Shown: positions 44,110 through 47,082 of the stretch, one piece after another | Numbering within the stretch: position 1 is the first letter of the stretch | Layout of the letters: each line of letters opens with the position of its first letter | NCBI GenBank assembly: GCA_937967615.1 | Contig: CALCMJ010000021.1 | Span: forward strand, 1-47,222 | Source: an uncultured Saprospiraceae bacterium | GTDB taxonomy: Bacteria; Bacteroidota; Bacteroidia; Chitinophagales; Saprospiraceae | DNA: 47,222 bases | Direction: 5' to 3' | Notes under the pieces: model-generated | Database searches by the model: none | What the model saw: the letters and a program-made list of their open reading frames with translations, nothing else | Told to the model about the DNA's origin: nothing | Program-made: the position numbers and the translations under genes

Positions 44110-44149
44110 TTTTTTCCACAATTTTAGGGAGATACCTCCACCGCCTACA

Positions 44150-44225
44150 GCGGCTCCGGCCCGGGCTATCCGTTCATATGTGCTCACTGCGTTCCGCGCA
44201 ACCCACTTCTATCCCTATCTCGGGA
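44150..44225 (-). repeat. GC-rich dispersed element (AGGGATAGAAG ... CGGATAGCCCGG)
   Basis: Read on the minus strand it begins AGGGATAGAAGTGGGT, contains GCGCGGAACGCAGTGAGCAC, and ends CGGATAGCCCGGGCCGGAG. I recognise this layout from memory as a common intergenic element near gene ends in Bacteroidota genomes; I could not check it. It separates the ABC-F gene from the broken serine hydrolase. The remaining part of 44110-44370 shows no gene. Confidence 0.5.
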
Positions 44226-44370: not shown

Positions 44371-44974
44371 ATTCATTTAGAGTTTAGTTACATGAACAAA
44401 TAACTGCTAGAGGTCCTCTCGCATACTTCGGGACTCCCTAATTGGAGGAGCGATAGCCTCAAAATAGATTTTTATCCCGGCACTCAGTATCAATATTCAG
44501 GAGAAGGTTACCGGTATCTTTCAAAAGTTTTGGCAAGTATAAATGAAATTCCATTTGAAAAACTTGACAGCCTCTTTCAAGAAGAAATTGTAAAACCATT
44601 GGAAGCTAATAAGCTGTATTTTCAATGAAATCAAGAAATTGATAGCAATCATGAAAAGAACATCCTTTCATCTCAAATAGTGAGTTATTAAAAGAGCAGA
44701 TCAAACTTCCAGAGAATGATATCAATTCAATTCTCATGAATGCATCAGGTTGGAGCCTTGGTTTTGGAATGATTCCTACATCTGCTGAGGTATGTTATTG
44801 GCATTCAGGCAACAATCAAGATTTTCAATCTTGGTTTCATTTTTTTATCCTGAAAGAAAATATGGAATAGTAATCTTTTCAAACTCTGACAAAATACAAA
44901 CACCTGAATTCTTTACTAAATTCTTTGACTTTCTTGATGACGGAATAGAATTCGATATGGACAATTTAGAATAA
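44371..44974 (+). pseudogene. Broken serine hydrolase (beta-lactamase-related) gene
   Basis: Fragments of a class C beta-lactamase-type serine hydrolase in changing frames. One frame reads LLEVLSHTSGLPNWRSDSLK, then DFYPGTQYQYSGEGYRYLSK and KPLEANKLYFQ before a stop near 44626. A second section reads GWSLGFGMIPTSAEV and YWHSGNNQDFQSW (about 44750-44835), and after a further frameshift KYGIVIFSNSDKIQTPEFFT to a stop at 44974. The N-terminal third with the S-x-x-K serine is missing. It lines up with the intact serine hydrolase at 45136 (LSHSTGLPNWR, YSGEG), but the two are only distantly similar, so it is a separate family member rather than a fresh copy. An attC-like site follows at once. Confidence 0.85.
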
Positions 44975-44986
44975 AATGAAATTTTG

Positions 44987-45125
44987 TTCATAACAATAAG
45001 TGATGATGTCATATGTTTTTGTCGCTTCATTTGATGCGCGTAGTTAAGCATTAGCTGAATATTTCTTATTATCTTAGTTTGGTGCACTAGCAAGCGTACA
45101 CCCCATAGTAAAAGCGTTACACACA
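44987..45125 (+). other. attC-like recombination site A
   Basis: The site starts with R''-like TTCATAAC (44987-44994), followed by AATAAGTGATGATGTCATAT, and ends about 130 bases later in GCGTTACACACA (45114-45125), which contains an R'-like GTTACAC core. The left arm (44991-45014) is identical in 23 of 24 positions to that of site B. The arms pair only imperfectly (ATGATGT with ACACCCCAT). The length is within the range of long attC sites such as the Vibrio repeats. Confidence 0.5.
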
Positions 45126-45135
45126 ATTAGAAAAA

Positions 45136-46332
45136 ATGAAGAATTGGCAATTGATATATATTATGGCTATTATATTACAAATTTCGTGCAATACTCCAAC
45201 TGATAATCAAATTAAAAGAATTGATGACTCAACAATCTCTGAAAAGCTGTTAGATAAAAAAATTAAGTCCCTTATAGATAAAGCAAATGTAACAGGAATT
45301 GCAATCTCAATTTTTAATTATCAGGATGTAGTTTATCAAAAAGCTTTCGGGTATTCAAATTTTGAAACAAAAGAATCCCTTGATGTTAATCATATATTTT
45401 ATGGAGCATCATTAAGTAAATCAGTTTTTGCTTACTTAGTCGCTCAATTATTAAGTGAGAATAAAATTGATTTAGACAAACCCGTACACTCATATTTTGA
45501 TATAGAATTGCCAGAAATATCAATTGATAAAGAATTTAGAAGATTGCATGACTTAAAGGGTGATGACCGGTATAAGCAGTTTACCACAAGGATGTGTCTT
45601 TCTCACTCAACTGGTCTTCCAAATTGGAGGTGGATAAATAATCCTGATGAAAAACTAAGAATTCATTTTGACCCAGGCACAAATCATAGTTATTCAGGTG
45701 AAGGGATAATGTTGGCACAATGGTTAGTCGAGCATATAACAAACGAAAAACTTGAAGACATAGCAAAGGAAAAGATTTTTATACCACTTGGGATGAAGAA
45801 TAGTGATTATTTATGGCGAGATGATTTCAAAAAACATTTCTGCTATGGACATTCAAAAAAACAAGAGAAACTTCCTAAGGATATAGAAACTGAAGATGCC
45901 GCAGCAGCTGGCTCAATGGAAACAACAATCATAGACTATTCTCTATTCTTGCAAAATATATTGCAATTGAGTAAAAAGAACTCAGAAGTCACAAAGAACC
46001 TATTCGCACCAACAATTAGAATAAAATCCAAAGCACAATTTGGACCTTTAGCTAAAGAAATTACAAATGAATACGATGATATTGAATTAAGTTATGGTTT
46101 AGGATGGGCAATACTAAAATCTCCATATGGAATTGGTGCTGGAAGAGGTGGACATAGTGAAGGATTTCAACACTACTCAATAATTTTTCCTGATAAAGGT
46201 ATTGGAGTTGTTTTTATGTCAAATAGCGATAATGCAGAAAGTATTTTTAAAGAATTATTAGAAATTACAATTGCGGATACTTTTACACCATGGAAATGGA
46301 AAGGTTATATTCCTTACGATTTAAATGAATAA
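45136..46332 (+). CDS. Serine hydrolase lipoprotein (beta-lactamase/penicillin-binding-like) in an integron-like cassette
   Basis: A 398-residue class C beta-lactamase-family serine hydrolase with a probable lipoprotein signal (MAIILQISC, Cys18). The catalytic S-x-x-K is S92-L-S-K95 in YGASLSKSVFAYLVAQLL. LSHSTGLPNWR is the family block at about 155. The second motif is Y186-S-G, instead of the usual Y-x-N, in HSYSGEGIMLAQWLVE, and the third is GGHSEGF, an HxG variant. Such proteins are usually esterases or D-amino-acid peptidases rather than true beta-lactamases. The gene begins 10 bases after the end of attC-like site A and its stop is 4 bases before the start of site B, leaving almost no free spacer, as in integron cassettes. 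Confidence 0.9.
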   Translation: MKNWQLIYIMAIILQISCNTPTDNQIKRIDDSTISEKLLDKKIKSLIDKANVTGIAISIFNYQDVVYQKAFGYSNFETKESLDVNHIFYGASLSKSVFAYLVAQLLSENKIDLDKPVHSYFDIELPEISIDKEFRRLHDLKGDDRYKQFTTRMCLSHSTGLPNWRWINNPDEKLRIHFDPGTNHSYSGEGIMLAQWLVEHITNEKLEDIAKEKIFIPLGMKNSDYLWRDDFKKHFCYGHSKKQEKLPKDIETEDAAAAGSMETTIIDYSLFLQNILQLSKKNSEVTKNLFAPTIRIKSKAQFGPLAKEITNEYDDIELSYGLGWAILKSPYGIGAGRGGHSEGFQHYSIIFPDKGIGVVFMSNSDNAESIFKELLEITIADTFTPWKWKGYIPYDLNE

Positions 46333-46336
46333 AAAC

Positions 46337-46414
46337 TGTGTGTAACAATAAGTGATGACGTCATATCTGTTTCGTACCTCACAGAGACGATGCATACTAT
46401 AACCGTTATAAGTA
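46337..46414 (+). other. attC-like recombination site B
   Basis: R''-like TGTGTGTAAC (46337-46346) is followed by AATAAGTGATGACGTCATAT. An imperfect stem follows, in which CGTC-(ATA)-TCTGT pairs with ACAGA-GACG and extra unpaired bases lie on the left arm. The site ends ATAACCGTTATAAG with an R'-like GTTATAA. TGTGTGTAAC is the exact complement of GTTACACACA at 45116-45125, just before this cassette's gene, as required if the cassette circle once joined these ends. The match of GTTATAA to GTTRRRY is imperfect. Confidence 0.55.
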
Positions 46415-46544: not shown

Positions 46545-46862
46545 TTAACTTGCTTTTTTCAATTCATACGGCTTCAAAAACGCATAGAATTTCAAGTTAA
46601 ACTCTACGCCTAATTTAAGAGCTATACGCTTTGTGATTTCTCTTCTATATTTAGTTATATCATTAATCAATTGAGGTGATACTTGAATTCTTTTTGAAAA
46701 TTCTTTTTGACTGATGTTGTTCTCAGTTAGCAATTCAATAAGCAACTCAACTGGATTTAGATTAAGTAAATATTTTTCAGTTTGTTCTTCATTGAATTTC
46801 TGAATTAAATAGGAGAGTAATTCAATTTCATTCTCACTTCTATTATCAAAACTCCCAAACAA
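46545..46862 (-). CDS. XRE-type helix-turn-helix protein (orphan antitoxin-like)
   Basis: Up to 105 residues with an HTH_3 domain in the second half: LIELLTENNISQKEFSKRIQVSPQLINDITKYRREITKR, then LALKLGVEF-like ending ALKLGVEFNLKFYAFLKPYE. The arrangement resembles HigA/MqsA-type antitoxins. No toxin gene is beside it on either side, and there is no ATG: the only start in frame is TTG at 46862, with a TGA two codons upstream. It may be a decayed toxin-antitoxin remnant or a regulator with an unusual start. It lies just beyond attC-like site B and might have belonged to another cassette. Confidence 0.6.
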   Translation of the reverse strand: MFGSFDNRSENEIELLSYLIQKFNEEQTEKYLLNLNPVELLIELLTENNISQKEFSKRIQVSPQLINDITKYRREITKRIALKLGVEFNLKFYAFLKPYELKKAS

Positions 46863-46955
46863 TATGACTCATATTGTGACAAGTTAGAAAGCCTTACAGA
46901 GAACTATGTAAAGCACAAATAATCTTTGAAATTTTACTTGCGTTTAAGTGTTCTT

Positions 46956-47045
46956 GCGATAAGGGTTGTAAGGGCACGCTTGCGTGGTCCCGCAAGGGAC
47001 GGAACCCCTGGAAGACCTGACCACTGCGAAGCAGTGGGATCGCCC
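46956..47045 (+). repeat. Dispersed three-hairpin GC-rich repeat, copy 2
   Basis: In order: GCG-ATA-AGGG, GTAAGGG, hairpin CACGC-TT-GCGTG (46975-46986), hairpin GTCCC-GCAA-GGGAC (46987-47000), GGAACCCCTGGAAGACC, hairpin CACTGC-GAA-GCAGTG (47022-47036) and GGGATCGCCC. The constant blocks match the minus-strand copy at 23746-23852; the stems do not match in sequence but are still paired. Confidence 0.7.
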
Positions 47046-47048
47046 ATA

Positions 47049-47082
47049 TAAAAAAAGCCCTGAAGTTTCCTCCAAGGCTTAT
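47049..47082 (-). terminator. Rho-independent terminator of the thioredoxin-family gene
   Basis: On the minus strand AGCCTTGGAG pairs with CTTCAGGGCT (two wobbles) around GAAA, followed by a T-run. It lies 22 bases after the stop at 47105. Confidence 0.88.

Follow-up and report, generated by a model that had tools for sequence, protein, structure and literature searches.

Integron-type gene cassettes in a Saprospiraceae genome and the I2-less tyrosine recombinase that may run such arrays in Bacteroidota

Is a serine hydrolase gene that stands between two similar sites in a Bacteroidota chromosome an integron gene cassette, and if it is, which enzyme moved it? The question was raised by a sequence-only reading of the window, by which we mean the whole stretch of 47,222 nucleotides analysed here (contig CALCMJ010000021.1 of the Saprospiraceae assembly GCA_937967615.1). 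Our best explanation, to which we give a probability of about 80% as a whole, has three joint parts: the window carries remnants of integron-type gene cassettes, one of them intact and one decayed; arrays of such cassettes in Bacteroidota are run by a tyrosine recombinase without the I2 domain; and the integrase of the window's own genome has been lost or was missed.

The cassette occupies 45117-46405 on the forward strand. It begins with the T that follows the crossover G (G|TT) in its own R' box, closes with the crossover G belonging to the next R' box, and has complementary R'/R'' ends and a full attC-like site at its 3' end. As the sequence-only reading had claimed, ten bases shortly before the gene (R' box at the cassette start, GTTACACACA, 45116-45125, forward strand) are the exact reverse complement, at 10/10 positions, of ten bases shortly after it (R'' box at the cassette end, TGTGTGTAAC, 46337-46346, forward strand). 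The gene between them (45136-46332, forward strand) encodes a 398-residue serine hydrolase of PF00144 (Pfam 138 bits), with a beta-lactamase/penicillin-binding-protein-like fold and a lipoprotein-like N terminus; none of the specific beta-lactamase families of NCBIfam matched it at cut-off (best 71.5 bits, cut-off 550). The near-absence of spacer around the gene was likewise confirmed: R' is separated from the ATG by 10 bases, and the stop codon from R'' by 4.

Recombination sites had been proposed on both flanks, and the proposal held in full for one of them and in half for the other. Site B (TAACAATAAGTGATGACG...CCGTTA, 46343-46408, forward strand) is a full attC-like recombination site belonging to a covarying hairpin family of 62 members (see below). 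Site A (44991-45122, forward strand) has the left half of the same family (TAACAATAAGTGATGATGTCATAT) followed by an unrelated right half ending in GCGTTA. Its 132-nt span gave no attC hairpin on folding, and the site is probably degenerate or chimeric. Because it is only half a site, the left boundary of the cassette rests on the R' box and not on a complete attC. Both flanks begin with TAACAATAAGTGATGA, at 44991 and 46343, and the reported identity of their left arms at 23/24 positions was reproduced.

Could the resemblance of the flanks be due to chance, or to one tandem duplication that took in the intergenic region, as the sequence-only reading had itself considered? A decayed relative of the serine hydrolase does lie directly upstream of site A (44413-44902, forward strand), which would suit a duplication. 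However, this pseudogene is merely 44% identical to the intact protein over 68 residues (with a second fragment), shuffled windows give an expectation of 0.00 for the left-arm pattern, and the site family covaries. The search for further copies of the 24-base arm found it at 7 dispersed places in the genome to which the window belongs, and reading the arm backwards gave 0 matches. Copies elsewhere in this genome and across the family are more than one duplication would give, and this explanation is refuted. The pseudogene is probably an older cassette. With complementary R'/R'' ends, dispersed arm copies and a covarying site family all supporting the proposed mobile or formerly mobile cassette, we regard the reading of the serine-hydrolase locus as settled: by its sequence, it is an integron-type, formerly mobile cassette. 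Downstream of site B lies a lone HTH_3 (HigA-like antitoxin) gene (46545-46862, reverse strand), beside which we saw no toxin partner. The window also contains dispersed noncoding repeats of two kinds, at 44122-44225 and 46954-47057, with several copies in the sister genome G291.

The window's genome (3.79 Mb in 190 contigs, 82.6% complete) contains more of these elements. Full sites, alignable over their whole length, were found on contigs C2, C21 (site B itself), C90 and C146, and a wider covariance model gives at least 8 sites. Searching a partner for each R' and R'' revealed two more intact cassettes, of 818 bp on C90 and 752 bp on C169, each with ends complementary at 10/11 positions. The site on C2 stands 17 bp behind a HigB/HigA-type toxin-antitoxin pair. 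Several of the sites are at contig ends, which is typical of repeats. The ends of contigs C80 (L009) and C90 (L010) carry identical sequence at an attC site, so that the assembly break there falls on a repeat. The absence of an integrase, first noted for the window, extends to the genome: neither IntI nor the I2-less recombinase described below was found in the 82.6%-complete assembly. The matches that a TIGR02249 profile search returned there were discarded as IntI, being Xer-like genes only, and the one on C146 is XerD by the NCBIfam cut-off.

The sister species G291 shows the same chromosomal place without this cassette. Its genes for an ABC-F ATPase and a TlpA-like protein are 1.05 kb apart, against 2.9 kb in the window, and the place has neither the serine hydrolase nor its sites nor the pseudogene. 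G291 does have the I2-less recombinase, 50 bp from a contig end. At the syntenic place (G291:C14, L264:437-762) an oppositely oriented attC-like palindrome directly precedes a gene for 91 aa, and cassettes may have targeted this spot repeatedly.

Do the sites fold as attC sites should? Bottom-strand folding agreed with the attC reading for the full sites of C2, C90 and C146 and for arrays in isolates, and it disagreed for site B taken alone and for site A. In the bottom strands of C2, C90 and C146, a 7-bp R stem is separated by an unpaired spacer from an L stem, beyond which a terminal stem follows. Three single-base bulges interrupt the L stem, all on one arm, and the terminal stem varies among full sites. 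Free-energy z-scores were modest for these three sites (-0.5 to -1.7) and +0.2 for site B, whose minimum-energy structure, when folded alone, differs from the attC hairpin. Among the sites of isolate arrays, the bottom strand folds more stably than the top in 15/16.

An Rfam search gave no attC match at the window's sites. The covariance-model search that had been proposed as a check was fruitful with a model made from the genome's own sites: R1, built from four of them, found relatives and arrays, with full-length matches in 30 of the 150 genomes of the family, some of them in arrays. In an alignment of 62 sites, 93% of base-pair cells are paired (79% when shuffled) and 210 are doubly changed (64 when shuffled), although the alignment was fitted to the structure and these absolute figures are biased upward. 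Sliding the partners abolished the covariation signal. One genome of the set, G392, has five sites within a single 6.5-kb contig, in cassettes of HigB/HTH and Gp49/HTH toxin-antitoxin types. A second, family-specific model (R2) found hardly any sites outside the family, because other lineages have attC sequences of their own; outside the family we used instead a sequence-independent R'/R'' scan with controls, together with self-comparison.

What stands beside these sites in relatives? The integrase search had a divided outcome: a tyrosine recombinase heads the arrays of relatives, but it is not a classical IntI, and none was found in the window's own genome. The enzyme was first met as TIGR02249 matches below cut-off adjoining sites in relatives. 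The arrays start directly 3' of a recombinase gene of about 370-580 codons, in the same orientation, in Flavobacterium, Portibacter, Arenibacter, Planktosalinus and others. The distance from the recombinase stop codon to the first R' is about 25-110 bp, and the attC copies that come after it, up to 7-14, share one orientation. In G301 the R' box behind the recombinase (GTTATACACC) is complementary to the first cassette end (GGTGTATAAC), and the corresponding pairs in G394 and G371 are complementary at 13/14 positions each. Model R2 places at least 14 sites around the G301 recombinase and finds downstream cassette-strand sites also in G257, G340, G118, G351, G394, G371 and G199; a single one of its 26 matches (L115:3709) is on the opposite strand. 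In G371, G302 and G087, which belong to three genera, the recombinase has the same divergent neighbour gene, and its site is a conserved chromosomal place. The layout of a complete integron, with a tyrosine recombinase, an attI-like site and an array, is thus present in relatives and was not found in the window's genome. As an attI consensus, TATA[CT]N1-5GTT occurred at 14/96 loci against 4.4 in shuffled sequence, which is too weak to claim.

The association extends beyond the family. One scan of GTDB representative contigs returned 80 recombinase loci, mostly from Bacteroidota and including isolates. Of these, 49 had enough downstream sequence for the R'/R'' scan, and a strict pattern (an R' within 125 bp of the stop codon, at least 9/10 complementary to a hairpin-opening cassette end) was found at 15, against 46 of 1020 control starts; the other 34/49 were without a strict match. 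Chains of two cassettes were found at 4/49 loci and at 0/680 controls. Self-comparison revealed 3-7 near-identical copies of 110-150 bp behind the recombinase, on one strand and at cassette spacing, in Flavobacterium cellulosilyticum, Portibacter lacus, Arenibacter arenosicollis, Paludibacter and a Prolixibacteraceae MAG; in Arenibacter arenosicollis a cassette unit of 777 bp is exactly repeated. Repeats lie downstream of the recombinase at 10/21 loci and upstream at 2/21.

The ends of these cassettes behave as integron ends do. In five arrays, the R' and R'' of one cassette match at 5.0/7 variable positions against 3.0/7 for other pairings (p=5e-6), in a table that keeps an early-picked Portibacter boundary (L176) and a cassette with an indel (L186), both of which depress the real score. 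The two flanks of one site differ, and each cassette carries its own complementary R'/R'' pair. All of the array ORFs found (7/7) are on the cassette strand. These features bear on the proposal that the sites are the ends of an IS91-type rolling-circle transposon or of a palindromic repeat element, with the gene between the copies there by accident. In G352 and G391 a site does lie 116-137 bp upstream of a tyrosine recombinase that is followed by an IS91-family transposase. However, private R'/R'' pairs together with differing flanks, single genes in one orientation and the absence of an IS91 gene from most arrays make this proposal very improbable, and the test for IS91-type (HUH) ends found an IS91 transposase near sites in these two genomes only, with none in the window or in the other arrays examined. 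The two units (L066:2688-5025 in G352:C129 and L107:1042-3262 in G391:C8) have the same order in both genera, a recombinase of about 300 aa and then the transposase, and are possibly an IS91-type element that targets attC sites. We considered these short recombinases as the integrase and rejected them, as they are few, form a separate branch and head no arrays.

Intact arrays are seldom recovered, and assembly probably accounts for this. Contig ends within 350 bp of the recombinase were found on its 3' side in 17/35 cases and on its 5' side in 0/62 (p=1e-9). In an independent GTDB set, contigs end within 2 kb downstream in 33/65 cases and upstream in 3. We attribute the 3' breaks to the repeated attC copies that stand just behind the recombinase gene, and the same repeats probably explain why so few arrays are recovered whole.

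The recombinase differs from classical IntI. It scores about 200 bits with TIGR02249, below the cut-off of 265, and its match to the profile breaks in two around positions 181-237. Throughout the family, the catalytic residues R, K, H, R, H and Y do not vary. The interval that holds I2 measures 93-94 aa in the classical IntI (7/7) and nearly all the other proteins have about 51-52 aa there, residues 180-246 of the Vibrio cholerae IntI (2A3V) have no counterpart, and the IntI-specific (I2) insertion of about 42 residues around patch III is absent. In a quick tree with a weak root, 7/7 IntI form one clade (SH-aLRT 99), with the recombinase family outside it. The predicted structure (mean pLDDT 86) lacks the I2 helix and has an extra N-terminal domain of beta-beta-alpha-beta-beta-alpha type; its nearest solved folds are XerA and IntI. 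Some members of the family reach 560-600 aa (L111:28-1782, L120:4489-6273, L176, L177), and a W/P-rich motif in the N-terminal part of L111 and L120 seems to be repeated. Across the 150 genomes of the family, the R1 site goes with the closest recombinase subgroup (10/15 against 20/135, p=4e-5, relatedness not corrected) and shows no clear co-occurrence with any recombinase of the group. Sites occur without the recombinase in several genomes (G253, G235 and G392).

Two other enzymes could have moved the cassettes. A classical IntI might do so, missing from the draft or residing in another cell or element, with the I2-less recombinase a bystander or cargo. Within the family, G018 has such an enzyme (421.9 bits), and so does 1/18 named genomes that carry the I2-less gene; an attC-like site also stands just upstream of the G301 recombinase, as though the latter sat within an array, and the draft of the own genome is only 82.6% complete. 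Yet G018 is the one genome among 299 of the order with an IntI over the TIGR02249 cut-off, 17/18 named genomes with the I2-less recombinase are without one, and none was found in the array genomes L122, L143, L146, L153, L158, L176 and L177. The interval from the I2-less gene to the first R' is short and fixed, and the divergent neighbour recurs beside that gene in three genera. We consider a classical IntI an unlikely agent. The IntI of G018 (contig C40, L022:3295-4542) has an N-terminal extension and an attC-like site nearby (L022:97-181). Host XerC/XerD could also recombine the hairpins, as for phage CTX, without a dedicated integrase, and no tyrosine recombinases but XerC/D-like ones were seen in the own genome. 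This has little to commend it when the site family is large and lineage specific and has a dedicated recombinase at its head in most relatives, and when its bulges are one-sided, unlike the CTX stem as described (PMC4792948). We infer from the linkage that the I2-less tyrosine recombinase is the integrase of these arrays.

How close is this to a known system? Sedentary chromosomal integrons of the classical type (Vibrio cholerae VchIntIA, 2A3V) resemble the present arrays in their attC hairpins, which have R and L boxes, single bulges on one side and a variable stem. They also share the complementary R'/R'' ends, the single-gene cassettes in one orientation, toxin-antitoxin pairs included, the array beside a tyrosine recombinase with an adjacent attI-like crossover G|TT, and the conservation of site sequence within a lineage. 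By contrast, the recombinase of the present arrays is without the I2 of about 42 residues and outside the IntI clade, has an extra and sometimes repeated N-terminal domain, and is oriented with the cassettes, not against them. XerA resolves chromosome dimers at dif. XerA-like recombinases (NF040815; PDB 5HXY, 4A8E) are also without I2 and are, with IntI, the closest in sequence and fold, but the present family has an extended N terminus and stands at the head of cassette arrays. The window's genome resembles the CALIN or single attC elements of IntegronFinder (PMC9024848) in having attC sites and cassettes without an integrase, whereas the same sites in relatives do adjoin a recombinase, one below the IntI-profile cut-off. 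In the passages of Smyshlyaev et al. 2021 (PMC8138268) on the "integron-like" simple tyrosine recombinases, the I2 insertion is said not to be fully conserved in the subgroup, and the I2-less members are not tied to attC arrays or to Bacteroidota.

The mechanism that we propose follows that of integrons. The recombinase would recognise the folded bottom strand of attC and cut it at G|TT; cassettes would leave as circles and then enter attI downstream of the recombinase's own gene. Extrahelical bases would be handled without I2, perhaps via the extra N-terminal alpha/beta domain or another surface. The N-terminal domain is perhaps a substitute for I2, a candidate by its presence in the predicted structure. 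In the window's genome, the dispersed cassettes could be survivors of a broken array or off-target insertions, and the integrase may have been lost or may be missing from the 82.6%-complete assembly.

Integrons have been reported in Bacteroidota (PMC9668308, PMC8618304), and a 2022 survey of complete genomes names one complete Bacteroidetes integron, in Salinibacter ruber M1 (PMC9024848). The additional (I2) domain is said to serve in the recognition of intI (PMC2426708), and is described as a domain that cassette capture requires and that no other proteins have (PMC7790495). The co-evolution of I2 with the extrahelical bases has been called a chicken-and-egg paradox, resolvable by intermediate forms (PMC4792948). 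Our search, which covered an open-access library of published papers, found no report tying I2-less recombinases to attC arrays. Judged on sequence evidence, the arrays seem to represent gene-collecting integrons of a class that is widespread in Bacteroidota and driven by an I2-less recombinase. We lean, with moderate confidence, towards a distinct Bacteroidota class whose integrase would recombine single-stranded folded attC without I2, and which integron searches, by requiring the I2 domain, have so far counted as absent from the phylum.

Such a class would represent either the state before IntI gained I2 or an independent solution, possibly via the N-terminal domain. Arrays of bulged attC sites under I2-less recombinases would then be the intermediates called for, or a second solution to the same problem. 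Finally, integron surveys detect integrases by IntI profiles. The recombinase was found in 93 of the 150 sampled genomes of one Bacteroidota family, and hence a large reservoir of mobile cassettes may be overlooked.
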